Positions 1-17,929 of a stretch of DNA of 40,189 nucleotides are shown in pieces. Origin of the DNA: Candidatus Desulfolinea nitratireducens (GTDB lineage Bacteria > Chloroflexota > Anaerolineae > Anaerolineales > Villigracilaceae). How positions within the stretch are numbered: the first letter of the stretch is position 1; the number at the start of each line of letters is the position of its first letter. The notes below the pieces were generated by a model. It made no database searches, had not been told where the DNA came from, and was given only the letters and a program-made list of their open reading frames with translations. The position numbers and the translations under genes were made by a program. Where the stretch lies: assembly GCA_014382535.1 (NCBI GenBank), contig JACNJN010000085.1, positions 9,116 through 49,304 on the forward strand, given 5' to 3'.

Positions 1-1307
1 TGCAAGCGGATAGAGGCTTCATTATAATTTCCAGCGTCAGCTTCCTCCTGCGCCTTTTCCTGCATCCGGTATAAGTTGAGATTTGCCAGGGCTTGAACAA
101 GGGTTGGCGAGGGAGGTTCGAGAATTGCCTTCTCGGTTACATTTCGGGAAAGCCGAACTCGCATGGGTGGGGTCGGCAATGATTTTGAGAGAATATCAAA
201 TTTCAATGAGCCATTCAACAATTCTGCCTCATCCTGCAAAATTGCAGTTGGCTTTATTTCAAATTCGAGTAAGAGACTAAGCGGTTGGTCACGCAATAGA
301 ACTCCCAATTGTATCGCTTTCTCGGCAGAAAGATGTGTCGCGTTCGGTTGTAGGCGGAAAGCATAGGTTAGATCAATATTGGGGGCATTTTTAATGGTTA
401 GCTCAACGTTTTCTGCAAAGACTTTTGTCAATTGCCTAAATTTCTCTTCTAAAAATCTTTGTATTTCTTGTGGCTCAGCTATATAACTGCTGCTACTCCC
501 CGTTTTAGCAGCCAATTCATCCAGAAAGTCATCGTTCCAATCCTGGCCAATTCCCAAACCGCTAATCCCAATACCCTGTTCGGCTGTTCTTTCAGCGAGG
601 GCCAACGCCTCAGCTTCATCTCCATACGTTTGGCCATCGGTTAGCAAGATCACATGATTAACCCACTCATCTGAAAGATTTCTTCGAACTTCTTCAACAC
701 CAACTAGCAACCCTTGCAATATCTCCGTTCCACCAGATGGATTGACCCTCCTGATTTGTGTCTCCATTCTTTGACGATCCGGTTGCAATGAAGAAGGGAC
801 AAGAACCTGCGCCCGATCACTAAATGTAACTATACTAAAAATATCCTGCTGCCTTAAACTACGAACCAGGTGAATAGCTGCAGCTTTGGCCATCTCGATA
901 TTTGACCCTTTCATAGAGGTGGAGCAATCCAAAACCAGGCAGATATTTAGCGGAGGCGAAATTACCTCTTTTTCATTTTCGCGCGACTTCCACTCTAAAA
1001 GGGCATAGATCAATTGCGTTTCATTCAGTCGAACAAGACTCTGCCGGCTGTAGAGAACCCGGTGAACAATCGGCGAAATTATTTCTTCTTCCGGAACTAA
1101 TGTTGCATCGTATTGAGCTCGTTTTTCCGGATTCGATAAAAGATCGTAAGCTTGTTGAATATTTTCAAATAGTTCTGTTTCACCAGAAGCTTCATTTTTA
1201 TCTGGATGCAGAGGTTGGGCAGCATCGAAATAGGCTTGCTTGATCTCATCCTGAGTTGCATCCCTGTTTATTCCTAAAAGAGCGTAATAATCTAGCAGAG
1301 TTGACAT
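1..1307 (-). CDS. J-domain / vWA-domain protein (C-terminus beyond window)
   Basis: Partial gene; 435 codons are visible and the frame is open to the left edge. The N-terminus (about residues 4-67) reads as a DnaJ J-domain with the HPD signature at 34-36, the motif that stimulates Hsp70. A von Willebrand factor A domain follows from about residue 118, with an intact MIDAS metal site: DCSTS at 127-131, then the Thr of PSGGTEI and the Asp of LLTDGQT. The visible end (EKAQEEADAGNYNEAS) resembles the helical region that closes many Chloroflexota vWA proteins. The start is the ATG one base after the stop of the PP2C gene (TAATATG), so translation is probably coupled. With the upstream kinase and phosphatase it forms a kinase/phosphatase/vWA triad. 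Domain calls are seen in sequence; a role as a phosphorylation-controlled scaffold or chaperone adaptor is inference. Confidence 0.85.
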   Translation of the reverse strand, partial: MSTLLDYYALLGINRDATQDEIKQAYFDAAQPLHPDKNEASGETELFENIQQAYDLLSNPEKRAQYDATLVPEEEIISPIVHRVLYSRQSLVRLNETQLIYALLEWKSRENEKEVISPPLNICLVLDCSTSMKGSNIEMAKAAAIHLVRSLRQQDIFSIVTFSDRAQVLVPSSLQPDRQRMETQIRRVNPSGGTEILQGLLVGVEEVRRNLSDEWVNHVILLTDGQTYGDEAEALALAERTAEQGIGISGLGIGQDWNDDFLDELAAKTGSSSSYIAEPQEIQRFLEEKFRQLTKVFAENVELTIKNAPNIDLTYAFRLQPNATHLSAEKAIQLGVLLRDQPLSLLLEFEIKPTAILQDEAELLNGSLKFDILSKSLPTPPMRVRLSRNVTEKAILEPPSPTLVQALANLNLYRMQEKAQEEADAGNYNEASIRL

Positions 1308-1308
1308 A

Positions 1309-2214
1309 TTACCCGATCATTTTCGCTAGCACAACAGATATATTATCAGGGCCTCCAGCTGCATTAGCTGCATTAACAAGGTTCTGGCAGGCGAGTTCAA
1401 GCGTATCTACGCTATTCATGGCTTTGAACATTTCAGCCTCGCTAAGGACACCCCAGAGACCATCGCTACAAATCATTAAGGTCCCTTTTTGTGGAAAAGA
1501 AACGGTGAACAGATCAGGCTCGAGAACTTCTCCCTGCCCTAATGCCCTATATAAAACATTTTTCTGGGGGTGTTTTTCAGCTTCTTCCGCTGTAATCTGC
1601 CCTAATTCTTCGAGGCGACCTACAAGAGAGTGATCGCGAGTAATTGCTTCGAATCGCCCATCGGGATAAACGGAATAGGCACGACTATCTCCTACATGGG
1701 CAATAGTAATCTGCTGTCCTAAAACAAGCGCAGCCGTAAGCGTGGTACCACTGCCAGGGGCATCACGCTGAATGGCCTCCTGTGCTTTATTGACACCATC
1801 ATGCATAATGGTTTGAAGGGATTCGTTTAATGGTGTTGTGGGCAAGTTGAAAAGATAAGGGTGGAATTTCCGGATTATATGCCCTCCAAAGGTTCTTATG
1901 GCAGTATTGCTGGCAACTTCTCCGTATTGATGTCCTCCCATACCATCTGCTACTATATACAGCCCAAAGGGAGTGTTGCCCGCATTTCCGGCAAGAGTAG
2001 AAGTGATAACCAAGAGGCTATCTTCGTTAAGTTCACGCTGCATCCCAACAGATTGACCGCCTGCAGCAGTCAGCTGCAGCAGATCATAGGATTGCTTTTG
2101 ATTTGTGCTAAGGTTATCCACCTGCCCTGGAGATAGAGGAACTGTTTCTTTTCCATCGCTATTGGTGGTAGTTTTAATTTTGTTTGGGAATAGCTTCTTC
2201 AGAAATTCAAACAC
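1309..2214 (-). CDS. PP2C-family serine/threonine phosphatase
   Basis: A 301-residue cytoplasmic metal-dependent phosphatase, expected to reverse phosphorylation by the adjacent kinase. The family motifs appear in order: LNED at 62-65, VADGMGGH (Asp and Gly-Gly metal site at 90-94), AHVGDSRAY, TRDHS, CSDGLWG and GGPDNIS near the end, so the metal ligands look complete. About 45 residues precede the catalytic domain, and no membrane segment is seen. The start is GTG at 2214, supported by AGGAG six bases upstream; no ATG fits as well. It begins 15 bases after the kinase stop and ends one base before the J-domain/vWA start, so the three genes very likely form one transcript. Family assignment is firm; the target proteins are unknown. 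Confidence 0.93.
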   Translation of the reverse strand: MFEFLKKLFPNKIKTTTNSDGKETVPLSPGQVDNLSTNQKQSYDLLQLTAAGGQSVGMQRELNEDSLLVITSTLAGNAGNTPFGLYIVADGMGGHQYGEVASNTAIRTFGGHIIRKFHPYLFNLPTTPLNESLQTIMHDGVNKAQEAIQRDAPGSGTTLTAALVLGQQITIAHVGDSRAYSVYPDGRFEAITRDHSLVGRLEELGQITAEEAEKHPQKNVLYRALGQGEVLEPDLFTVSFPQKGTLMICSDGLWGVLSEAEMFKAMNSVDTLELACQNLVNAANAAGGPDNISVVLAKMIG

Positions 2215-2229
2215 AGGTAGCTCCTCTTC

Positions 2230-4116
2230 TCATGCCAAGAGTGCATAAAATTGGTGGTCTGTAGAACCAAAATAGACAATATCGTCATAAACTATGGGGG
2301 ATCCGGTGATCGGTCCTTCAGTGGCAAATTTCCAACGCAACTGTCCCTTACGGGCTTCAAGACAATAAAGATGACCATCAACTGAGGTGGAATATAGTGC
2401 ATCTTTGTAGACAACGGGTGAGCCAGTTACTTGATGTTCTGTACGAAAACGCCACACTTCTTTAGCTGTTTTCAAATCAATGGCATAAATAAAACTGTCA
2501 GCAGAACCAGCGAAAATCAAGTTCTCCAAAATAGCAGGGGATGAAATCGAGCCTTTTCCCATCCGGAATTTCCAAAGGACCCAACCATTGCTCGGATCCA
2601 AGGCATATAATACTCCATCCAGTGATGTGAAGTATACAGCGTGTTCGGTCACCAGTGGAGATGATGTAATACCACGGTTGGCTCTAAATTGCCATTTAAT
2701 ATTCCCTTTAAAGTCCAAACAATAGAATTCTCCACTTTCAGAGCCGAAATAAATCAGTTCATGCGCAACAAAGGGGGTAGAGCGAACAGCATCAGATGCA
2801 GTAAAAGTCCAGGCTGAACGTCCAGTCATGCTATTTATTGCATGCAGGCAGTTATCATCTGAACCAATAAAAACATGTCCTTCGGCAATGCAAGGTGATG
2901 AATGGAAAGGTCCTTCGGCAAAATGCGACCAGGAAATTTTGCCGGAGCGAGCGCTAATTACATGTAAACGTTTATCTTCAGATCCGAAATACACATTTTC
3001 ATCAGCAATGGCCGGCTTGGAAACAATGCCGCCATCCGTTGGATATTTCCATTTAAAAGTACCCTCGGCTGCATTGAGCGCATAAAGGTTGTTATCGTAA
3101 CAGCCGATATAGATCGTATTATCAAAATAGGCAGGTGTGCCACGAATTTCATCTTCGCATTTGAAACTCCAGAGTGGCTTAATCCCATTTGTCTCAAGTG
3201 ATGATGCAATCGTGGAGGGCATTCTCGCAAGCAATCCCGTTTGGCGAGCAGCAGCAGACAAGGCATCTTTCATTTCAGCGACATTCGGGTATCGATCATT
3301 GGCCTCGTATTCAAGTGCCCGTGCAATTACTGTTTCAATCTCGGGAGAAACATCCTGATTGAATTTATTGATTGGCCGCTCATTAAAAGAAAATGGTGGT
3401 TCCAAACGCGGATCTTTTTTTGTAAGCAAATGATGAACGGTGGCCCCCAACGCGTAAATATCAGCAAGGTGAGTGGCTTCACCCCGATACTGTTCTGGAG
3501 GGGAGTATCCCTCTGTTCCGATCATCGTGCCTTTTTGCCCGGTTTGGAATTGTTTAGCTATTCCAAAATCGACCAGCATAATATGACCACGATTATCAAC
3601 CATCACATTGGAGGGTTTCATATCCCTAAAAATAATCTGATCTGGCTTATGACCATGCAAAAAACTTAATACATCACAAAGCTCAATCGCCCATGAGACA
3701 ACCTGTGCTGTAGAAAGGAAACCTTCAGATTCCCGTATGACAGCTTCAAGATCCTTGCCATTAATAAATTCAAGGACCAGATAAGATCGATCTTCACTGG
3801 AGAAATAATCAAAAATACTGGGGATGGAGGGGTGTGTGAGCGTTGCCAAAATATTGGCCTCACGCTCAAAATTTTCGACAATAGTTTTTCTTATTTGTGG
3901 GTCAGGAGCAAGATTGACCATTTCCTTAACCGCAACAAGTTTTACCACATTCGGAAAATGTAAATCCCGGGAACGATAAACAGATCCCATTCCCCCAATG
4001 CCAACAATTTCCTGAATCAGGTAACGTTCAGAGAGCGTAACTCCCGGTTGTAATTGTTGCTGAACAGGTTGTGAATTACCTTCATCTTCAGAATATGTTA
4101 CTTTTTTAGTATCCAG
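2230..4116 (-). CDS. Ser/Thr protein kinase with C-terminal PQQ-type beta-propeller
   Basis: Hanks-type kinase followed by a propeller. The glycine loop (VGIGGMGSVYR), the VAVK lysine, FRDMKPSN (catalytic loop, His replaced by Phe), LVDFGIA and YSPPEQYRG are all present. From about residue 315 there are eight repeats of roughly 41 residues of the type YFGSxDxxLYALD, giving an eight-bladed PQQ-like propeller. No membrane helix separates the two parts, so the propeller is probably cytoplasmic. The first ATG in frame (3990) would cut off half of the glycine loop. The frame runs open upstream to a TGA, and no ATG, GTG or TTG lies between. The given start is CTG at 4116, preceded by GAGG; a one-base assembly error in a run of six A at 4102-4107 is the main alternative. 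First gene of the kinase-PP2C-vWA unit. Confidence 0.88.
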   Translation of the reverse strand: MDTKKVTYSEDEGNSQPVQQQLQPGVTLSERYLIQEIVGIGGMGSVYRSRDLHFPNVVKLVAVKEMVNLAPDPQIRKTIVENFEREANILATLTHPSIPSIFDYFSSEDRSYLVLEFINGKDLEAVIRESEGFLSTAQVVSWAIELCDVLSFLHGHKPDQIIFRDMKPSNVMVDNRGHIMLVDFGIAKQFQTGQKGTMIGTEGYSPPEQYRGEATHLADIYALGATVHHLLTKKDPRLEPPFSFNERPINKFNQDVSPEIETVIARALEYEANDRYPNVAEMKDALSAAARQTGLLARMPSTIASSLETNGIKPLWSFKCEDEIRGTPAYFDNTIYIGCYDNNLYALNAAEGTFKWKYPTDGGIVSKPAIADENVYFGSEDKRLHVISARSGKISWSHFAEGPFHSSPCIAEGHVFIGSDDNCLHAINSMTGRSAWTFTASDAVRSTPFVAHELIYFGSESGEFYCLDFKGNIKWQFRANRGITSSPLVTEHAVYFTSLDGVLYALDPSNGWVLWKFRMGKGSISSPAILENLIFAGSADSFIYAIDLKTAKEVWRFRTEHQVTGSPVVYKDALYSTSVDGHLYCLEARKGQLRWKFATEGPITGSPIVYDDIVYFGSTDHQFYALLA

Positions 4117-6901: not shown

Positions 6902-7792
6902 ATGAAGAAAGTTTTGTATTTGCTCTTTGTTTTGATCATTGCATCGCTTGTCATATCTGCTTGTGGCCCGGGCAAACTTGGGACAGAAAAAAACCCCATC
7001 ATCTGGGCTGTTGTTCCCTCAGGTGAAACCGAGCGCGTCGTCACAGGCTTTGAAGAAGTTGCCGCAATGATCTTCGATGAGACTGGCCTGGTTGTTCAGC
7101 CTTTGGTCGCCACTGAGTACGCTGGTGTGATCGAAGCCATGTGCAGTAATCCGCCAAAAGCTCATATGTCATCTTTGGCCACTTTCTCATACATCCTGGC
7201 TGCCGAAAGAGGCTGCGCTGATGTTTCCCTGGTCTCAGTCCGATTTGGCAGTGCTGTCTATAATGGCCAAATTTTCGTTCGCGAAGATAGTGGTATTACA
7301 TCTATTACAGAACTGGCCGGGAAGACCGTTTGCCGCCCCGACCCTCTTTCCACCAGTGGCTGGATCATCCCCAGCATCACCTTTAAAGCTGCTGGTATCG
7401 ATCCTGATACCGATCTGGCCCAAATTGTAGACGCTGGCTCCCATGATGCTTCTGTTGCCGGTGTTTATAATGGTGACTGCGATGCGGGTACATCTTATGT
7501 AGACGCCCGTGGCACCATTGAAGAGGATCATCCTGACGTCAAAGACGTCATCAAGGTCATCGAGATCTCAGCCGACATCCCCAATGATGGTGTTCAGTTC
7601 GTTCCCAGCTTTGACGCTGAAGCACGTGCTTTGATCGTTGATGCCTTGCTGGCTATCGCTGAGACCGATGCAGGCAAAGAAGCTCTTGATACCGCCTACA
7701 GTTGGAATGCTCTTGAAGAACAGAATGACACCTTCTATGATGCCTTCCGTCAGGTGCTTGATGCTGCCGGTGTTTCTGCTTCAGACTACTAA
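6902..7792 (+). CDS. phnD: Phosphate/phosphite/phosphonate ABC transporter substrate-binding lipoprotein
   Basis: A 296-residue PhnD-family binding protein. The signal peptide ends in a lipobox (VISAC, Cys at about residue 21), so it should be an envelope-anchored lipoprotein. Family features include the LATFSYILAAERG and LAGKTVCRPDPLSTSGWIIPS regions, the latter the usual helix-start Ser that contacts the anion, and VYNGDCDAGTSYVDAR. It starts after AGAGGAG six bases upstream. phnC and phnE follow, but only after 216 bases containing two strong hairpins, so phnD can be made in excess of the ATPase and permease. No C-P lyase or phosphonatase gene is nearby, so the ligand (phosphonate, phosphite or another oxyanion) is open. 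Confidence 0.92.
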   Translation: MKKVLYLLFVLIIASLVISACGPGKLGTEKNPIIWAVVPSGETERVVTGFEEVAAMIFDETGLVVQPLVATEYAGVIEAMCSNPPKAHMSSLATFSYILAAERGCADVSLVSVRFGSAVYNGQIFVREDSGITSITELAGKTVCRPDPLSTSGWIIPSITFKAAGIDPDTDLAQIVDAGSHDASVAGVYNGDCDAGTSYVDARGTIEEDHPDVKDVIKVIEISADIPNDGVQFVPSFDAEARALIVDALLAIAETDAGKEALDTAYSWNALEEQNDTFYDAFRQVLDAAGVSASDY

Positions 7793-7831
7793 AAATCCTG
7801 ATCTTTTAGTACCTGGAATGTAAATACAATT

Positions 7832-7872
7832 CACCAGCGGAGGATGCCAAAGATAGCATTTCTCCGCTGGTG
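7832..7872 (+). terminator. Hairpin after phnD (terminator or mRNA-stabilising stem)
   Basis: CACCAGCGGAG (7832-7842) pairs perfectly with CTCCGCTGGTG (7862-7872). Inside, ATGC (7844-7847) pairs with GCAT (7856-7859). It is followed only by TGTTTCTT, a weak U tract, so it may act as a 3' end stabiliser or an attenuator for phnD mRNA rather than a full terminator. Confidence 0.6.
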
Positions 7873-7920
7873 TTTCTTAAGAAAGGCGATTGGCAATAAA
7901 AAATTCCGATTGTATTATTA

Positions 7921-7961
7921 AAACCCAAAATCATAAAAACATGTTGTGATTTTGGGTTTTT
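7921..7961 (+). terminator. Intrinsic terminator between phnD and phnC
   Basis: A 13-bp perfect stem, AAACCCAAAATCA (7921-7933) with TGATTTTGGGTTT (7947-7959), a 13-base loop and a T-rich tail. The run of A on the other side means it could also act on the minus strand. It is the second hairpin in this gap and should stop most transcripts that pass phnD. Confidence 0.72.
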
Positions 7962-8008
7962 GAAATATTTTTGGCAGTACCAATCTAGACTAACTAGAGG
8001 AGAACCAT

Positions 8009-8815
8009 ATGCTTGAAGTTCGTCACCTCAGTAAAACATATGCCGACGGGACCAAGGCGCTGAAAGATGTCAGTTTTTCAGTGCCTGATGGAGAGTTTCT
8101 TGTTGTCATCGGGTTGAGCGGATCAGGGAAATCAACCATGCTCCGGTGTATCAACCGCCTGATCGACCCAACCGAAGGAGAAATTCTTTGGGACGGCGTA
8201 GATCTGGCTCAACTCAAAGGGGAAGATTTGCGCAAAGCCCGACGCAAGATTGGGATGATTTTCCAGCACTTTAATCTTGTTAAAAGATCATCTGTGTTAA
8301 AAAATGTTCTCGCGGGACGATTAGGATATACACCATCCTGGAATAGTTTAATCGGGCGTTTTTCCGCAGAGGACAAAATAAAAGCATTTGAGGCCATCAA
8401 AAGACTGGGTATCGAAGATCAGATCTATAAACGAGCCAGTGAATTGAGTGGTGGTCAGCAACAGCGTGTCGGCGTAGCCCGAGCCCTGATGCAAGATCCT
8501 GAGATGATCCTGGCCGATGAGCCTGTAGCAAGTTTAGATCCGGTGCTGGCTCACTCGATCATGCAATATCTCGAATTACTTAACCAGGAAGACAAGATAA
8601 CCATGGTTTGCAGCCTGCATTATCTGGATTTGGTACAACGCTACGCCACAAGAGTTATTGGTCTAAAAGATGGGGTACTTGTTTATGAGGGCAGCAAAGC
8701 AGATATTCGCGCAATGACAGATGAACAATTTAAGGATATTTATGGTCAGGATGCGGAACGAGTGGGCGGCGGACTTGAAGGAGATCTAGGTGTAAAAGTG
8801 GGAGGTGCAGCATGA
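8009..8815 (+). CDS. phnC: Phosphonate-type ABC transporter ATP-binding protein
   Basis: A 268-residue ABC ATPase that drives the PhnE permease. Walker A is GLSGSGKST at about residues 33-41, the Q loop is MIFQHFNLV, the signature is LSGGQQQRVGVARAL, Walker B is MILADEP, and the switch His is in CSLHYLD. The pattern VASLDPV after Walker B and the length fit the PhnC branch. Its ATG follows GAGGAGA seven bases upstream. Its last codon overlaps the phnE start (ATGA), which points to coupled translation. Two hairpins lie upstream, so it needs read-through or its own promoter; I see no convincing promoter in the 48 bases between the last hairpin and the ATG. Confidence 0.94.
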   Translation: MLEVRHLSKTYADGTKALKDVSFSVPDGEFLVVIGLSGSGKSTMLRCINRLIDPTEGEILWDGVDLAQLKGEDLRKARRKIGMIFQHFNLVKRSSVLKNVLAGRLGYTPSWNSLIGRFSAEDKIKAFEAIKRLGIEDQIYKRASELSGGQQQRVGVARALMQDPEMILADEPVASLDPVLAHSIMQYLELLNQEDKITMVCSLHYLDLVQRYATRVIGLKDGVLVYEGSKADIRAMTDEQFKDIYGQDAERVGGGLEGDLGVKVGGAA

Positions 8816-10341
8816 CTGACGACAAACTCCAACTAGGTCATATCCCTGAGGACGCCCGAGAACCCAGCCTGGTGCCTGCACCAATCGCTGCATTGGCATC
8901 CCTGATCATTCCCGGCCTGGGACAGGCTCTCGCCCGAAGCGCACGCCGAGGATTGATCCTGTTCTTTTCCTTCATAACCGTAGTGGGCCTGACAATGTGG
9001 CGCTTTGGTATTGCTGCACCGCGTGATACAGGCTGGTGGGCGATCTTTAAAAAAGGCTTGTATCTGGACCCCTTTTTAATTGTTGTCACCATCCTGCTTT
9101 TCATCCTGTACATCTGGATCGCCATTGATGCCTATTCGTTGGCAAAAGTGCGCACAAAAACTCCACTGGGAGTTTTTATCGCGCTAATGGTTATGTTTTT
9201 TGCATTGGGCTGGCAAATCGCCCAAATCGATTTGGTTGGCTTTGTTTCTAACGCTGATGATGCACTACCCGCTCTGGGTCGGGTTGGCTGGCCCTGGAGT
9301 AAAGCTATTGATTACGAGTTAACTGAAATCCGGGCAGATGCAGAAATAGAAATTCCTTGCTCAGATGCGCCTCCCCCTGAAAACACCCTTTCAGGAGACG
9401 AGCCTATCATCATTTCGACGCCAACCTGTGGAAATCTGCGTGATCAGGATGGAACCGACAATCCGGGCACAGAGCTGCACCTGGAAGGCTACAATTTTTC
9501 ACCGGGCATTGAGGTCGATATCATGTGGGAAGACCCGATTGGTGACGAATTCCGCCAGCGCCAGGGCGGAGAATATGTGATTGTTATCCCGGATGAAAAC
9601 GGTTATTTCGAAATCGACATTGAAATGCCTTACGCTCTTCTGCCACCCAGTGCTAGAGAACCAACTTATATCTGGGAAGTGTTCGGCCATCAGATTGAAG
9701 AAGTGGGGGCCGCAAAATTAAGCCACGATTTTAAATTGATCGTTGAAAAAATGATCGAGACCATTTTCATGGGCATGATGGCTACCTTCTTTGGAATCTT
9801 GTTCGCGTTGCCGGTCAGCTTCCTGGCAGCCCGAAACCTGATGTCAATATCGCCATTGACACTGGCAATCTACTATTTGGTTCGATTTATCTTGAATATC
9901 ATTCGTTCCATCGAACCGATCATCTGGGCCGTCATCTTCATCATTGTGGTCGGATTGGGGCCTTTTGCAGGCGTCCTGGCCCTGGTCTTACACTCGATTG
10001 CGGCCCTGGGCAAACTATATTCCGAAGCAATCGAATCAATCGACCCCGGGCCAATTGAAGCTGTCCAGGCTACTGGTGCCAACTGGATCCAAACTGTAAT
10101 GTATGCGGTCGTTCCACAAATCATCCCACCCTTTGTTTCCTTCACTATCTATCGCTGGGATATCAATGTGCGCATGTCCACCATCATCGGTATGGTCGGC
10201 GGTGGCGGAGTTGGCTTCCTGTTGATCCAATATATCCGTGTTCTGGATTATCGCTCTGCCGGGATGTGTGTCTGGTTCATCGCGATCACAGTCGCCATTC
10301 TGGATTATGTGAGTGCAGAGATCCGCGCCCGCTTTGTATAA
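8812..10341 (+). CDS. phnE: Phosphonate-type ABC transporter permease with extra N-terminal region
   Basis: A 509-residue permease, nearly twice the usual PhnE length. The C-terminal half (from about residue 310) is the normal permease: MGMMATFFGILFALPVSFLAARNL, several helices, and the ATPase-contacting loop EAIESIDPGPIEAVQATGA. The N-terminal half adds about four hydrophobic segments (27-41 with a IIPGLGQ motif, 47-63, 87-106, 121-138). A roughly 160-residue polar region (145-305) follows, with two Cys (183 and 206) and a beta-rich stretch GTELHLEGYNFSPG that resembles an Ig/IPT-like fold. By topology this region probably faces outside. It overlaps phnC by four bases and ends before a terminator at 10362-10399. 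Confidence 0.92.
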   Translation: MTDDKLQLGHIPEDAREPSLVPAPIAALASLIIPGLGQALARSARRGLILFFSFITVVGLTMWRFGIAAPRDTGWWAIFKKGLYLDPFLIVVTILLFILYIWIAIDAYSLAKVRTKTPLGVFIALMVMFFALGWQIAQIDLVGFVSNADDALPALGRVGWPWSKAIDYELTEIRADAEIEIPCSDAPPPENTLSGDEPIIISTPTCGNLRDQDGTDNPGTELHLEGYNFSPGIEVDIMWEDPIGDEFRQRQGGEYVIVIPDENGYFEIDIEMPYALLPPSAREPTYIWEVFGHQIEEVGAAKLSHDFKLIVEKMIETIFMGMMATFFGILFALPVSFLAARNLMSISPLTLAIYYLVRFILNIIRSIEPIIWAVIFIIVVGLGPFAGVLALVLHSIAALGKLYSEAIESIDPGPIEAVQATGANWIQTVMYAVVPQIIPPFVSFTIYRWDINVRMSTIIGMVGGGGVGFLLIQYIRVLDYRSAGMCVWFIAITVAILDYVSAEIRARFV

Positions 10342-11696: not shown

Positions 11697-12272
11697 CTAC
11701 TTTACCTGCATCGGAATACCCGCTACAAGCAATAGCACTTCGTCGGCATGAGATGCCAGGATTTGGTTGGCACGTCCAAGAATATCTCGATAGGCGCGTC
11801 CCAATTCATAGGGTGGGACAACCCCCAGACCAACCTCATTCGATACAACCAACAGTTCTACCTCTGTCTCCCGGACATAAGCGACCAAAGCCTCCACTTC
11901 GACAATCACATTCGCCTCGATTTCAGGTTCGAAGGGATCAGCCTTTGGGTCTTCAAAGGGATCGCCTACCGGGGCGGCCGCATCCATCAGATGATTGGCA
12001 ACCAGGAAGGTCATACAATCCAGTAAAATGATACGTGCCGTGCTACCTGCCTCACGAATAGCTTGGGCAACATTTCGGGGGGCTTCTATCGTCCCCCAGG
12101 TGGATGGCCTCTCGGTGCGATGCTTCCTGACCCGCTCGATCATCTCCTCATCTTTGATCTCAGACGTGGCGACATAAAGAACATTCTCACCACCTGATTC
12201 TTTGGCCCTCTTTTCTGCAAAGGAGCTTTTGCCACTCCGGGCGCCACCGAGAACCAAGGTTAATTTTCCCAT
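11697..12272 (-). CDS. cobU: Adenosylcobinamide kinase / adenosylcobinamide-phosphate guanylyltransferase
   Basis: A 191-residue bifunctional enzyme of nucleotide-loop assembly: it phosphorylates adenosylcobinamide and then activates it with GTP. The P loop is LGGARSGKSSFAE near residue 8, and the HRTERPSTWGTIEAP stretch carries the His that is guanylylated in CobU. It is the last gene of the cobalamin operon and overlaps the end of cobQ by 13 bases. The stop codon is TAG, useful evidence that UAG is a normal stop in this genome. Confidence 0.94.
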   Translation of the reverse strand: MGKLTLVLGGARSGKSSFAEKRAKESGGENVLYVATSEIKDEEMIERVRKHRTERPSTWGTIEAPRNVAQAIREAGSTARIILLDCMTFLVANHLMDAAAPVGDPFEDPKADPFEPEIEANVIVEVEALVAYVRETEVELLVVSNEVGLGVVPPYELGRAYRDILGRANQILASHADEVLLLVAGIPMQVK

Positions 12273-13762
12273 ATGATCTTCTCCAAATATTCCATATCCA
12301 GGGTTTCTTCCAGAGTATCCGCCAAACGTGTCAGGGAAGCCGCGAATGGGTCTTTCTTTCCTGCCTCTTCACCACTCCAACCTACATCTTTCAACCAGGC
12401 TCGGCGTAGATTCTCATTCGAGAACAATCCATGCAGATAGCATCCCCAAATTTTTCCGTCCTCGCTGGTTGCTCCATCCGGCACCTGAACCGATTGACCA
12501 CTGCGTTCTATAAGTTTCATCCAGGGGCTTTGGCTATCGGTACGACCCATGTGAATTTCATATCCGCTTATTATTTCACCTTCAATATCAGCAAACCAGC
12601 CAGAACCATTTTCTATTTGGGCACTGGCCTGATGAGTGGCTTTTTCACCAGAAAAAACTGTTTCAATGGGAAGCAAACCCAATCCGGGGGCGCTTTCCAG
12701 TGCTGATTCCACATGTTCCGGATCATGGACAAGTTCTCCCAGCATCTGGTAACCGCCACATATCCCAACGACAGCGCCTCCCTTCTGTGCATGCTCCTGA
12801 ATCCTTTTTTCAAAGCCTTGCGACCGCAACCACTCCAGGTCGTTGAGGGTGCTCTTCGTCCCCGGGATGATGATCGCCGCGGGATTGCCAATTTGCTCGG
12901 GGCTATCCACATAACGAACGCGAACACCCGGCTCTGCGGATAGCGGATCGAAATCATCAAAATTAGCAATGCGGGGCAGATGTACCACGACTATCTCGAG
13001 TTCGTCAGTTGGTGAGACAGAATTCTCAAAGGGATTGTCCAACGCCACCGCATCTTCTTCAGGGATGAATAGACCCTGTAAATAGGGCACTACACCCAAG
13101 ACCGGAATATCGGTTTTATCTTCCAAAATTTTGACCCCATCTGAGAACAGCGATATATCCCCGCGGAATTTGTTGACAATAAAGCCTTTTACCAGTTCGC
13201 GCTCTTCAGGCTCCAGTAACCAGGCTGTGCCAATTAATTGTGCGAAAATCCCGCCACGGTCAATATCACCAGCTAATAGTACAGGGGCTTTTGCATAACG
13301 CGCAATCGCCATGTTAACTATATCGCCCTCTTTTAAATTAAGTTCAGCCGCACTGCCAGCACCTTCAATAATTACTAGTTCGTATTTTTCACGCAGTCGA
13401 TCCAGGGCAGCCGTTGCCTCCTTCCAAAGCATCTTCTTATTCGGATAATAGTCTTTTGCGGAAAGCGTTTTCCAGGGCCGCCCCATAACAACCACCTGTG
13501 AGCGAGAATCCGCTTCAGGTTTGATCAGGACCGGGTTCATATCCACGTGAGGTTCCAGGCCGGAGGCAATTGCCTGGGTAGCCTGCGCACGTCCGATCTC
13601 GGAGCCATCCGGGCAAACGGCAGCGTTGTTGGACATATTCTGCGCTTTGAAGGGTGCAACCCGCACTCCTCGTCTGGCGAAAAGGTGACATAAGCCAGCT
13701 ACCAGCAAGCTTTTTCCAACGGATGAGGAGGTGCCTAAAACTACGAGAACTTTTCCGGTCAT
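12260..13762 (-). CDS. cobQ: Cobyric acid synthase
   Basis: A 500-residue glutamine-dependent amidotransferase that amidates adenosylcobyrinic acid a,c-diamide at four side chains. The N-terminal P-loop domain reads VVLGTSSSVGKS, followed by FKAQNMSNNA and EADSRSQVVVMG. The C-terminal glutaminase has the nucleophile Cys in VGICGGYQMLG and a late His in GCYLHGLF. I chose the ATG at 13762 because it overlaps the cobS stop as ATGA and gives the usual MTGKVL-type start; an upstream in-frame start would add 18 residues lying inside cobS. Its presence beside cobU and cobS suggests the cell handles corrinoids upstream of cobinamide too, not only salvage. Confidence 0.94.
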   Translation of the reverse strand: MTGKVLVVLGTSSSVGKSLLVAGLCHLFARRGVRVAPFKAQNMSNNAAVCPDGSEIGRAQATQAIASGLEPHVDMNPVLIKPEADSRSQVVVMGRPWKTLSAKDYYPNKKMLWKEATAALDRLREKYELVIIEGAGSAAELNLKEGDIVNMAIARYAKAPVLLAGDIDRGGIFAQLIGTAWLLEPEERELVKGFIVNKFRGDISLFSDGVKILEDKTDIPVLGVVPYLQGLFIPEEDAVALDNPFENSVSPTDELEIVVVHLPRIANFDDFDPLSAEPGVRVRYVDSPEQIGNPAAIIIPGTKSTLNDLEWLRSQGFEKRIQEHAQKGGAVVGICGGYQMLGELVHDPEHVESALESAPGLGLLPIETVFSGEKATHQASAQIENGSGWFADIEGEIISGYEIHMGRTDSQSPWMKLIERSGQSVQVPDGATSEDGKIWGCYLHGLFSNENLRRAWLKDVGWSGEEAGKKDPFAASLTRLADTLEETLDMEYLEKIIWEN

Positions 13763-14493
13763 ATTGCCACTCCGGTTGTGAAAATAAGCAAAACAGCCAA
13801 TTCGATCAATTCGCATAGGGCGCCGTAACTATCTCCGGTCAGGCCGGGGACGCGGCGTAAAATAAAGCTTGCGCCAAGCCAAAGTATTATTCCTGAGATA
13901 GCGAAGGTCAATAAGCCGATCCAATCAGCGAAGAACCAGGCTCCCAAGACAGTCAGAACGGTAGCCAGAATGACTTGTGGCCAACGGACGTTCTCTTTCA
14001 TACCGCGCCCCATTCCTTTTTCGCGGGCGTATGGGAAAGCGAAGATTGCAATAGACAATGCCCAGCGTCCGAAAACGGGAGCAAGCAAAAGTCCAGAAAG
14101 ATTCGGGAGAGAAGTCATGGCGGCATATTTTGACAGCAGCAACACGACTCCACCAGCCACACCAAATGCGCCAACGCGCGAATCCCTCATGATCTCCAGG
14201 CGTCGCTCTGGAGTGAATCCGCCAAATAGACCATCGCATGAATCGAGAAACCCGTCAAAGTGCAGGGCACGGGTGAGCAGCAACCAGGCTGCCAGGACGA
14301 TGACCGAGACAATCTGCGTTGAAAAAATCAACTCCAGGCCACTTCCCAATCCATAAAGCACCCCGCCCAGCGCCAGGCCGACCACCGGGAAATAGCCCAC
14401 AGATCGACCCAGCTCCTGTGAGGTAAATGGGCGACGGATAAGTGCCGGAAAGGTGGTCAAAAATTGGAAAGCAGTCAGAAGTGAAGTTATCAT
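13759..14493 (-). CDS. cobS: Adenosylcobinamide-GDP ribazoletransferase (cobalamin synthase)
   Basis: A 244-residue integral membrane enzyme that joins adenosylcobinamide-GDP with alpha-ribazole (or its phosphate). About six to seven hydrophobic segments are seen. The conserved acidic motif ALHFDGFLDSCDGLFGG binds the metal, followed by RRLEIMRDSRVGAFGV. It precedes cobQ with a four-base overlap and follows cobO after 27 bases. CobT and CobC, which would supply alpha-ribazole, are not in the window. Confidence 0.93.
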   Translation of the reverse strand: MITSLLTAFQFLTTFPALIRRPFTSQELGRSVGYFPVVGLALGGVLYGLGSGLELIFSTQIVSVIVLAAWLLLTRALHFDGFLDSCDGLFGGFTPERRLEIMRDSRVGAFGVAGGVVLLLSKYAAMTSLPNLSGLLLAPVFGRWALSIAIFAFPYAREKGMGRGMKENVRWPQVILATVLTVLGAWFFADWIGLLTFAISGIILWLGASFILRRVPGLTGDSYGALCELIELAVLLIFTTGVAI

Positions 14494-14520
14494 TTTTTAT
14501 CCAATCCGCCAGGTACGGCT

Positions 14521-15054
14521 TTAAAATTCAATTCCTGGCTGTGCAGAAATTTCCTGATCTTCATAAGGATGCTTGATTTCTTTCATTTCCGTGACTATAT
14601 CGGCAAAATCTATCAACTCCTGTGGTGCATTGCGCCCAGTGATGATCAAATGCAGCATGGGCGGTTTGTTTTCCTGCAACCAGGCGATCACTTCATTCAC
14701 ATCCAACCATTCGAAATCCAATGGGTAGGTAAATTCGTCTAAAACGATCAAATCGTATTCGCCACTGGTGATCTTTTCCTGTGCCAATTTCCAACCATGC
14801 TGCGCGCGTGCAATGGTCTCATCCATATCTTTTGAACGCCAGGTAAATCCATCCCCGGTGGAAAGCCAGTCAATTCCCAGTTTTGTGGCGGCTTTAACCT
14901 CACCCCATTTTCCCTTCTCTGATTTGATGAATTGGAGAACACAGATGCGCATCCCACGCCCCCATGCGCGTAAAACCACACCAAAGGCTGCAGTGGATTT
15001 CCCCTTCCCTTTTCCCGTATTGACGATCACCAGGCCCTTTTTCTTTTTTGCCAT
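14521..15054 (-). CDS. cobO: Cob(I)yrinic acid a,c-diamide adenosyltransferase (CobA/CobO type)
   Basis: A 177-residue P-loop enzyme that adds the adenosyl ligand to reduced corrinoids using ATP. Evidence: [15 protein letters not shown] (the P loop of this family), [27 protein letters not shown], and [14 protein letters not shown] with its Walker-B-like acidic residues. Start is the ATG with GAGG five bases upstream. It sits between the importer genes and cobS, matching use of imported corrinoid as substrate. Confidence 0.94.
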
Positions 15055-15066
15055 TTTGCCTCTCTA

Positions 15067-15852
15067 TTACTTTTGTTCCAATGCGCCTTGCGGAAAAATG
15101 ATCGGCGCACCCGTAACTGGATGAGGGATAATCTCAACCGGCGTTTGATAGGCCTCACTGATATTTTCTGCACAGATCACCTCTTGCGGAGTACCAAAGG
15201 TTATTAGCTCTCCACCGACCAGCAAGGCAACTTTATCTGCAAAAAATGAAACCAAATTCAAATCATGGACGGCCATCAAAACAGCTAATTCTTTCTCTAT
15301 CGAAAGTCTTTTTATCAGCGATAATAAATTTGTCTGGTGTTGCAAGTCCAGATGATTTGTGGGTTCGTCAAGCAATAAAACAGGGGTTGACTGAGCGAGG
15401 GCTCGCGCCAGCAATACCCTCTGTTGTTCGCCCCCGGATAATTGAGCGATCGACCTGTCAGCAAAATCCTGCAATTGGGCTTGCTCCAACGCCAATCGAA
15501 CAGCATCTCTATCCTCCTGGCTCTCACGCCCAAGCCAGCTCATATAGGCTGTACGTCCCATCATCACGGCCTGCTCAACAGAATAAGCACCTCCCAATTG
15601 CCGTGTTTGAGGAACAACAGCCAAAACCCTGGCCCGTTCCGCGGTTGAAAAACGGGATAAATCTTTCCCATTGACATAGATCTGCCCGGATTCGGTGGGT
15701 ATTGTCCCGCTTACGGCTCGCACAAGCGTGGTTTTTCCGGCACCATTCGGGCCGATCAAAGCGATTATTTCTCCGGGAAGGGCCTCAATGGTAATATTTT
15801 TCAGCACCCTTTTCTGGCCATAGGCAACTGTAAGAGAGTCTATTTTTAGCAT
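15067..15852 (-). CDS. btuD: Corrinoid (BtuCD-type) ABC transporter ATP-binding protein
   Basis: An ABC ATPase of about 261 residues from the FecCD/BtuCD importer group. Walker A is IGPNGAGKTTLV, the signature is LSGGEQQRVLLARAL, Walker B is VLLLDEPTNHLDL, and the switch His is in MAVHDLNLV. I chose the ATG at 15852 (MLKIDSL) because it is one base after the btuC stop (TAATATG); an upstream in-frame start lies inside btuC. Iron-siderophore ATPases look similar, but the riboswitch and neighbours make corrinoid the likely cargo. Confidence 0.92.
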   Translation of the reverse strand: MLKIDSLTVAYGQKRVLKNITIEALPGEIIALIGPNGAGKTTLVRAVSGTIPTESGQIYVNGKDLSRFSTAERARVLAVVPQTRQLGGAYSVEQAVMMGRTAYMSWLGRESQEDRDAVRLALEQAQLQDFADRSIAQLSGGEQQRVLLARALAQSTPVLLLDEPTNHLDLQHQTNLLSLIKRLSIEKELAVLMAVHDLNLVSFFADKVALLVGGELITFGTPQEVICAENISEAYQTPVEIIPHPVTGAPIIFPQGALEQK

Positions 15853-15853
15853 A

Positions 15854-16879
15854 TTACCAGAAGACCTCTCGCTTTGCACGGCGCAGAATCCACAAGAAGA
15901 AAGGCGCGCCAGCAAGGGCGGTCACAATCCCCACAGGCAGGGTAGAGGGAGCCAACAGGATACGCGCCAGCATATCGGCCAGCAGCAACGCACTGCCACC
16001 TCCCAAAATGGATAGCGGGACGAGGCGCCGGTAATCCGCCCCCCACAGAATGCGAATCATATGCGGGACGATCAAACCTATGAAGCCGATCACTCCCGAA
16101 AATGCAACTGCTACCGCTGTGGTCAGGGATGCTGTCACAATGATGAATATTTTAGCCCGGTCAACATTCAGCCCCATCTGCTTGGCTTCTTCTTCCCCGA
16201 ACTGGAGCACATTTAGCATATGTCCAGAGATGGATAGCATCCCCATGCCTGCAAGCATGTAAGGCAAAGCTGCGATGACAGGATTCCAGCCTGCCATCGG
16301 TGAACCACCGAGCAAAAATGAAATTGCCCGGTGAAGTTGCAAATCGGTACGCAGCATCAAAAAGGAAGTCATTGCCGAAGCAAAGGCTCCTACAGCCACA
16401 CCGGCAAGGATAAGCGTCGTCATCGGGACCATACCATTTACACGCGCCAGATTGTAGACCAATACTACGGTCAGGATCGCCCCCACAAAGGCGCCGGCAG
16501 GCACCAAATAAAATCCCAGCAAGTTTGTCGGCCAGTTAAGTGACATTGCAAACACCGCACCTAGTCCAGCCCCTGAAGCGACACCGATCAGATAAGGATC
16601 AGCAAGCGGATTACGGAACAATCCTTGATACGCAGCCCCACTGCTCCCCAGGGCTGCTCCTGTCAGGACTACCAGAACCGTGTGCGGAAGGCGCACAGCC
16701 AGGATGATGGCTGAAAATGAATTTGGCCAATCAGGATTGATATTGATCCCAGGAATTTGAGCTGCCAGGATCCGGAAGATAGTCTCCGGAGGAATGAAGA
16801 CAGCACCCAGCGCAATACTGATCACAAAGGCTGTGAGCAACAAGATCGTATTCATTAAATAAGGTCGTTTGCGGATCAT
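15854..16879 (-). CDS. btuC: Corrinoid ABC transporter permease (FecCD family)
   Basis: A 341-residue permease with about ten helices. Family regions seen are SFSAIILAVRLPHTVLVVLTGAALG split across the first helices, GAAYQGLFRNPLADPYLIGVASGA, and the ATPase-contacting GVIGFIGLIVPHMIR. It lies 63 bases after btuF and one base before btuD. Cargo is assigned from the cobalamin riboswitch and the cob genes rather than from sequence alone. Confidence 0.92.
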   Translation of the reverse strand: MIRKRPYLMNTILLLTAFVISIALGAVFIPPETIFRILAAQIPGININPDWPNSFSAIILAVRLPHTVLVVLTGAALGSSGAAYQGLFRNPLADPYLIGVASGAGLGAVFAMSLNWPTNLLGFYLVPAGAFVGAILTVVLVYNLARVNGMVPMTTLILAGVAVGAFASAMTSFLMLRTDLQLHRAISFLLGGSPMAGWNPVIAALPYMLAGMGMLSISGHMLNVLQFGEEEAKQMGLNVDRAKIFIIVTASLTTAVAVAFSGVIGFIGLIVPHMIRILWGADYRRLVPLSILGGGSALLLADMLARILLAPSTLPVGIVTALAGAPFFLWILRRAKREVFW

Positions 16880-16942
16880 AATAAGCGGGACGAGGCTCCA
16901 TAACCTTTCACGGTCAGCATATGAAGCCTCGTATGATCGGGC

Positions 16943-17929
16943 TTACTCAAATATCTCGGGGTGCAAGAGTCTGGCAGTTTCTTCCAGAGCATCCACCAGA
17001 CGGGGGCCAGGAACGCTCATCATGTTGGGGTCGATAGGATAAAGTGCATTCTCAGCGACAGCAGTGATGGCATCCCAACCTGGGCGTGCGATAACAATCT
17101 CAGGAGTAACACCATAGGGTGCATCGGCCAGCAAAATAATCTCTGGATTGATAGCGATCAATGCTTCGGTACTGATCTGAGCATAATCACCTTCTAGCGC
17201 AGAAGCCGCATTGATGCCACCGGCCATGGTGATAATATAATCAATAAATGTGCCAGACCCCGTCGTCCAGGGATTGGCCGGATCAGTTGCATCCAATTCG
17301 TAAAAGACAGAAGGGAGATAAGATACAGGAGCAACTTTTTCCTGTACAGCTTTGACACGTGCATCCAGGTCTGTAATCAGGATTTCGGTTTCGGCTTCGT
17401 GACCCGTCAGCCTGGCAAAATCACGTAAGTTTTCAAATAGCTCTTCATACGAGGCGGGGTTGGCCTGCCAGTAAACATTCAACCCGAGGTCGCGCAAGGC
17501 CAGAGCCTGGTCTTCCGAGATAATCTCAGCCGCAACGACCAGGTCTGGCTCCAGCGCCAGGATGGCTTCTGTGGGCAACTCCTCCCATAACGCACCTACG
17601 CTGGTGACATCGAGGGCTGCTTCAGGATACACAGAATACTCATCGCGCCCGACAACCTGATCTCCGGCACCGATTGCAAACAGAACCTCTGTGGTAGAGG
17701 CCGAAATGGAAACGATGGCTTGCGGGTATTCGCTCAACTCAATCGTATTGCCTAAATCGTCAACAAAGATCATACCCTCTGGTTGTGGTTCTTCAGCAGG
17801 TTTCGGAACATCGGTGGATTCTACTTCAACAGGAATTTCAGGTGGGGTTGCAGCAGGGGTACAGGCTCCGAGCAACAGTCCAAATGAGAATAGCACTGTT
17901 AAAAAAAGTATTTTTTTCTTGTTTATCAT
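16943..17929 (-). CDS. btuF: Corrinoid ABC transporter substrate-binding lipoprotein
   Basis: A 328-residue binding lipoprotein. The signal peptide ends in LLLGAC (lipobox Cys about residue 23), then a Pro/Glu-rich linker (about 24-52), then the two-lobed helical-backbone domain: IVSISASTTEVLFAIGAGDQ at its start, LEPDLVVA, and AINPEIILLADA in the second lobe. Start is ATG with GGAGAG upstream. It is the first gene after the cobalamin riboswitch and so leads the transport/assembly operon. Confidence 0.93.
   Translation of the reverse strand: MINKKKILFLTVLFSFGLLLGACTPAATPPEIPVEVESTDVPKPAEEPQPEGMIFVDDLGNTIELSEYPQAIVSISASTTEVLFAIGAGDQVVGRDEYSVYPEAALDVTSVGALWEELPTEAILALEPDLVVAAEIISEDQALALRDLGLNVYWQANPASYEELFENLRDFARLTGHEAETEILITDLDARVKAVQEKVAPVSYLPSVFYELDATDPANPWTTGSGTFIDYIITMAGGINAASALEGDYAQISTEALIAINPEIILLADAPYGVTPEIVIARPGWDAITAVAENALYPIDPNMMSVPGPRLVDALEETARLLHPEIFE

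Follow-up and report, generated by a model that had tools for sequence, protein, structure and literature searches.

In Sulfolobus acidocaldarius, the ArnA/ArnB pair controls archaellum expression: as set out in parts of PMC6509490 and PMC12852372, the Hanks-type kinase ArnC phosphorylates C-terminal Thr residues of ArnB, the forkhead-associated (FHA) domain of ArnA binds the phosphorylated helical bundle of ArnB, and PP2A dephosphorylates ArnB. TerY-P modules place a kinase, a PP2C phosphatase and a von Willebrand factor A (vWA) protein in one operon, the kinase ending in a zinc ribbon (TerY-P-like modules have an OB-fold instead), according to passages of PMC11090510; and the GAP1-N2 GTPase-centric systems, in the sections of PMC7159879 drawn on here, comprise one theme with DnaJ fusions and a separate one with kinase, PP2C and vWA, DnaJ being fused to FNIII-repeat proteins and not to vWA. 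Here we describe an operon of Candidatus Desulfolinea nitratireducens (Chloroflexota), entering a stretch of 40,189 nucleotides (the window; contig JACNJN010000085.1, G000:C185:9116-49304), in which a kinase, a PP2C phosphatase and a vWA protein with an N-terminal J-domain adjoin an ArnA-like FHA protein.

By analogy with the Arn proteins, we propose, at a probability of roughly 0.6, that the locus is an Arn-type phospho-switch operon whose J-bearing vWA partner recruits DnaK. The likeness to ArnA/ArnB (with the kinases ArnC/ArnD and PP2A) lies in a vWA protein with a predicted split beta-sandwich and C-terminal bundle, an FHA partner whose zinc-ribbon cysteines are spaced as in ArnA, a Hanks kinase, a phosphatase and a Thr in the bundle; unlike the Sulfolobus system, this one is bacterial, has a J-domain at the N terminus of the vWA protein and forms one operon with an OmpR-type regulator and an 80-residue protein. 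A set of kinase, phosphatase, ArnB-like and ArnA-like proteins so far studied in Sulfolobus would thus be found together in a single bacterial operon. Among the genes of this operon we recognised no GTPase. The open-licence literature searched (titles, starts of abstracts and passages) yielded no description of this operon or of a J-domain/vWA fusion, an arrangement that an earlier annotation made from the DNA letters alone (the sequence-only reading) had also called unfamiliar; the Discussion of PMC12852372 gives a Catenulispora vWA protein and YfbK as bacterial structural relatives, and no such operon appears in that section.

Operon layout and conservation

The minus strand carries three genes in head-to-tail arrangement at 3-4116 of the window, separated by 15 bp (kinase/PP2C) and 1 bp (PP2C/J-vWA):

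2230..4116, minus strand: Hanks Ser/Thr kinase with C-terminal PQQ-type beta-propeller (Pfam and motifs; probable CTG start at 4116)
1309..2214, minus strand: PP2C phosphatase (Pfam PP2C, 1.1e-13)
3..1307, minus strand: J-domain/vWA (J-vWA) protein, first 435 residues (remainder in the assembly gap outside the window)
1107..1292, minus strand: J-domain, residues 6-67 (Pfam DnaJ, 1.1e-21; coordinates derived from residue numbers)
1200..1208, minus strand: His-Pro-Asp (HPD) motif of the J-domain (sequence motif)
477..947, minus strand: vWA domain, residues 121-277 (Pfam VWA, 4.5e-21; coordinates derived from residue numbers)
915..929, minus strand: DxSxS of the metal-ion-dependent adhesion site (MIDAS), here DCSTS (sequence motif)

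The Pfam matches and the short gaps bear out the sequence-only reading, which had seen a tight operon of propeller kinase, PP2C and J-vWA protein with intact HPD and MIDAS motifs; DCSTS is accompanied by GGT at 726-734 and LTDG at 633-644. Genes 4-6 of the operon lie outside the window and were therefore invisible to that reading. The first bases of the window adjoin a run of Ns in the scaffold (L005:8827-9115), where the J-vWA gene is truncated by the end of the window. On the far side of the Ns this frame continues into an FHA domain, giving an apparent single frame of 676 amino acids. We reject a single J-vWA-FHA protein of this length as an artefact of the gap, because relatives encode the J-vWA protein (about 490 amino acids) and the zinc-ribbon FHA protein (about 170 amino acids) as two separate genes; these overlap by 4 bp in 27 of the 39 cases measured.

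In relatives, the FHA gene is followed by genes for the 80-residue protein, the OmpR-type regulator and often a LuxR-type regulator. The order kinase, PP2C, (J-)vWA, FHA, 80-residue protein, OmpR is kept, as far as contigs reach, in all 41 loci of the order set (the window's own and 40 selected to give a broad spread; the contigs of L116 and L133 stop short of the PP2C gene). Two genomes, G053 and G040 (L111, L112), have an extra 407-amino-acid gene, matching FHA and kinase profiles, between the FHA and 80-residue genes. When 60 genomes of the order, including this one, were searched with the 435-residue query, 52 matched from residue 1-9 to at least residue 430, hence over both J-domain and vWA, so that a J-vWA protein of a kinase/PP2C operon occurs in most of them, the kind of conservation that the sequence-only reading had said would support it; two of the other eight matched from residue 78-79 (no J-domain), one was cut by a contig end and five matched in a single domain only. 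At 1e-30, matches with or without the J-domain were found in 163 of 296 genomes at class level and 121 of 350 at phylum level. The 40 class loci and 17 phylum loci examined were selected, non-randomly, to cover both J-bearing and J-less kinds; PP2C went undetected in the class loci G089 and G066. The J-vWA operon is a genuine, old and mostly conserved architecture of Chloroflexota.

Two side observations concern its surroundings. The 80-residue protein (L005:8131-8373, outside the window) is conserved and has no Pfam family (best E 0.17); the model of a relative's copy is a five-strand barrel for which Sm/LSm-like folds rank top, none of them at a Foldseek E≤0.001, and we therefore claim no function for it. 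A paralogous J-less module (L156-L164, L168, L169 and others) has larger PP2C and FHA proteins, further kinases and no 80-residue gene; its kinase often matches the FHA profile, and its vWA tail is of the type K-K-L-R-Y-x-T-R-K-L.

Predicted fold of the J-vWA protein

The fold was modelled with AlphaFold2 on the full-length relative L041 from eight sequences (mean predicted local distance difference test score 72). The J region of the model consists of four helices (residues 7-11, 19-33, 43-58 and 60-69), agreeing with the J-domain placed there by the sequence-only reading. Behind it, strands flank the vWA domain on both sides and a four-helix bundle closes the C terminus, so that the body is predicted to have the architecture of ArnB: split beta-sandwich, vWA and C-terminal helical bundle. 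Residues 78-485 superpose on ArnB (8s05_B 2-381) end to end (Z 25.6, 369 aligned, 4.3 Å), and residues 79-486 on 4fx5, a Catenulispora acidiphila vWA protein with the same three-part body that aligns outside the J-domain only (Z 32.1, 388 aligned); Escherichia coli YfbK shares the three-part body, going by the Discussion of PMC12852372. With the vWA profile, ArnB ranked second (5.7e-20) behind an inter-alpha-trypsin inhibitor chain, and the Pfam vWA-TerF-like family matched weakly (8 of 38 members, best 0.00093). The MIDAS D, S and S are conserved in 40/40 rows of the order set that cover these columns.

The FHA partner and a candidate phosphothreonine ligand

The best PDB match of the FHA protein profile is ArnA (8.9e-15), with zinc ribbon and FHA domain both aligned. 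C4, C7, C18 and C21 and the motifs GR, SRxH and SxNG are invariant in the 33 rows aligned (39 available), and we take the GR, SRxH and SxNG residues to bind phosphate. Such a role for these FHA residues is in line with parts of PMC6509490, and the CxxC-x10-CxxC spacing is identical to that of C21/C24/C35/C38 in ArnA as given in part of PMC12852372.

The final helix of the L041 model ends K-x-I-K-Y-G-T-R-A-L, and the Thr of KYGTRAL is kept in 40/40 order rows extending that far and, over all sets, in 96 of 101 rows. It occurs in 87 of 88 rows with an adjoining FHA gene versus 9 of 12 without (a further row, at a contig end, lacks the Thr; Fisher 0.005). One of those nine, L106, in fact belongs with the FHA-bearing rows, the open frame of its FHA gene beginning within the vWA gene and so escaping detection; with L106 reassigned the counts are 88 of 89 versus 8 of 11 and the Fisher value is 0.004, figures that overstate independence since the rows are related by descent. 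KYGTRAL is absent from L007, the sole other vWA protein found in searching this genome, and from the tails of two cyanobacterial homologues without FHA neighbours. A pThr-x-x-Leu sequence suits FHA domains, and on this pattern of occurrence the KYGTRAL Thr is a candidate FHA ligand, predicted to the residue. We do not equate it with T371/T375 of ArnB, to which the alignment scores just -0.1 bits.

Distribution and history of the J-domain

The sequence-only reading had held that homologues without the J-domain would speak against its proposed chaperone adaptor. That objection applies in part: J-less orthologues do occur, in several families and in the same kind of operon, and most of the genomes searched in the order keep the J-domain. 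The J-less operon core was seen at two loci of the order (G036 and G050), at eight loci of the class (G225, G107, G209, G242, G073, G135, G315 and G090; G209 gave no PP2C match, and just G225, G242, G315 and G090 have an OmpR gene alongside) and, in other classes, in five genomes (G461, G440, G489, G475 and G591), where no OmpR gene is adjacent. Where the J-domain is present, HPD is intact in 56 of 63 rows: 37/38 in the order set, 14/20 in the class set and 5/5 in the phylum set. The seven that retain a J-domain without HPD, namely L126 (G045; the one case in the order set), L173, L176, L180, L181, L182 and L186, form a natural loss series. The invariant HPD of our alignment A4 is given no weight here, A4 having omitted the HPD-less row L126. 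Because of the J-less orthologues in the same kind of operon and the HPD losses, we regard the J-domain as an add-on and not as part of the core.

In a quick-search tree of 100 vWA regions, built with the J columns excluded, 62 rows carry a J-domain, and all of them fall in a 77-row clade with this operon (support 100). The J label requires six changes on this tree, compared with 30.6 when labels are shuffled, and starred branches force at least four of the six. One gain followed by about five losses fits the tree; there may instead have been several gains. The J-domain is old in Chloroflexota and has been lost or has degenerated several times. Beyond the phylum, no fusion of this family was found in the genomes sampled: of 15 genomes reached through loci, the 14 from other phyla gave no full-length match (the fifteenth, which has one, is a Chloroflexi), and 59 of 146 genomes in the phylum of G667 and 4 of 149 in that of G661 match, all of the matches listed starting at position 74 or later, that is, without the J-domain. 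A J-vWA protein suggested in Paenibacillus (L079) by its match span was discarded, the locus having two J-domain genes and, by eye, no vWA protein among its listed frames.

The same distribution bears on the view that the J-domain of an Arn-like switch is now a structural or docking module and no longer a working Hsp70 recruiter, the chaperone link being historical. Its loss from several clades in which core operon and tail motif persist, and the seven J-domains retained with degenerate HPD, point this way; the 56 intact HPD motifs, 37 of 38 in the order set among them, and the Hsp20 neighbour gene described below point against it, and we consider it unlikely. Proteins with J and HPD, with J lacking HPD and with no J form a natural series in which the contribution of a J-domain to a signalling protein could be tested.

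In two cyanobacteria (L212:8635-12773 and L213:6075-9513), a J-less vWA homologue is divergent to two ClpP genes, which are followed by a J-domain/TPR gene; neither locus has an FHA or PP2C match, and a kinase match lies some 3 kb from one of the homologues. On the two loci examined, this is another proteostasis neighbourhood.

Chaperone genes near the operon

Downstream of the OmpR gene, on the same strand and within 1.6 kb, an Hsp20 match lies in 17 of the 37 order-set loci with room for one (800 bp or more of remaining contig; in four further loci the contig ends too early). PF00011 confirms 16 of the 17, the match in L116 being a 67-amino-acid fragment that it does not list. The Hsp20-bearing loci are spread over seven families of the order, and chance predicts about 0.025 such neighbours over 34 genomes (89 Hsp20 genes), a comparison that overstates independence, the events being fewer than 17 through shared descent. 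This genome has two full-length DnaK genes, one of them beside a J-domain gene on C172.

Co-chaperones commonly pair a J-domain with a binding body, and with its intact MIDAS and the Hsp20 gene nearby the J-vWA protein could be a specialised co-chaperone, its vWA body binding a client that the J-domain hands to DnaK, with kinase, PP2C and FHA protein doing no more than tuning client release. J-less and J-bearing forms share operon core and tail motif, so that the J-domain is not the constant part, and no obvious client gene stands among the recognised operon genes; this role seems quite improbable to us.

A proposed phospho-switch

Returning to the Arn-type switch, we infer its steps as follows. 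The kinase would phosphorylate Thr residues of the J-vWA protein in its C-terminal bundle, above all that of KYGTRAL; the zinc-ribbon FHA protein would dock on this phosphothreonine, by analogy with the binding of ArnB by the ArnA FHA domain; and PP2C would reverse both phosphorylation and docking. The N-terminal J-domain would bring DnaK to the complex, making assembly or disassembly depend on chaperone supply. Output would be carried by the OmpR regulator and, in many relatives, might include the downstream small heat-shock gene. Participation of DnaK would couple Ser/Thr signalling directly to proteostasis; a role for DnaK in the switch is likely, and dispensable in some clades. A more specific form can be put forward tentatively: free DnaK, recruited through the J-domain, would dismantle or hold open the vWA-FHA complex built by the kinase, so that folding stress would be read by Ser/Thr phosphorylation and passed to the response regulator.

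Several observations weigh against the Arn-type switch. The C terminus of the window's own J-vWA protein falls in the assembly gap, so its tail Thr is unseen; the Thr is missing in L165 despite an adjoining FHA gene, and the Fisher value for the two overstates independence through shared descent, as does the chance expectation for Hsp20. In other classes, the J-vWA genes of G508, G417 and G390 have no adjoining FHA gene, and the OmpR gene is non-adjacent in many class and phylum loci. The J-domain is absent from several clades that share the core operon and has lost HPD in 7 of 63 rows, and a downstream Hsp20 gene is missing in this genome and at 19 other loci with room. The Arn system uses ArnC and PP2A, whereas a propeller kinase and PP2C are found here. 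Because the bacterial 4fx5 outranks ArnB as the top structural match, the body must be regarded as a widespread fold; the ArnB bundle aligns by sequence only at the negative score given above, and Pfam ArnB_C matches just 2 of 38 members (best E 0.016) and 0/1 in this genome, where the protein is gapped, its control matching in Sulfolobus acidocaldarius alone.

Kinase, phosphatase and the TerY-P comparison

The kinase (Pfam Pkinase, 2.2e-36, plus the PQQ-type propeller) has the motifs AVKEM, FRDMKPSN and DFGI. Its Kyte-Doolittle hydropathy does not exceed 1.3 in any 19-residue window, so that no transmembrane segment is obvious. Between its upstream stop and the glycine loop (window 3990-4116) there is no ATG, GTG or TTG, and the first such codon of the frame, the ATG at 3990, lies inside the loop; the start is therefore probably the CTG at 4116. 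The PP2C scores 215.8 against the NCBIfam Stp1-like model, slightly below the cut-off of 230.

Having a kinase, a PP2C and a vWA protein in one operon, the locus was likened to the TerY-P modules by the sequence-only reading, and the kinase matches the PADLOC kinase models PD-T4-6 and mad6, as the PP2C does PDC-M21C (1.3e-14), as might be expected of a TerY-P-type stress or defence triad. Unlike a TerY-P kinase, this one shows neither a zinc ribbon nor an OB family among its 15 Pfam matches at E≤1 and ends in a propeller; the vWA body is of predicted ArnB type, bears a J-domain and has an adjoining FHA partner; and the J-vWA and FHA proteins (both of L131), the 80-residue protein and the OmpR regulator have no PADLOC match at 1e-5. 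On account of the kinase C terminus and the ArnB-type vWA body we reject the TerY-P reading, which appears very improbable.

Other genes in the window

Two further gene groups were noticed in the window. A phosphonate-type ABC importer lies at 6902-10341, its binding protein matched by Pfam (2.3e-46) and its ATPase and a permease judged by eye, and the minus strand at 11697-17929 has the appearance, by eye from N-terminal sequences, of a cobalamin synthesis and uptake cluster.

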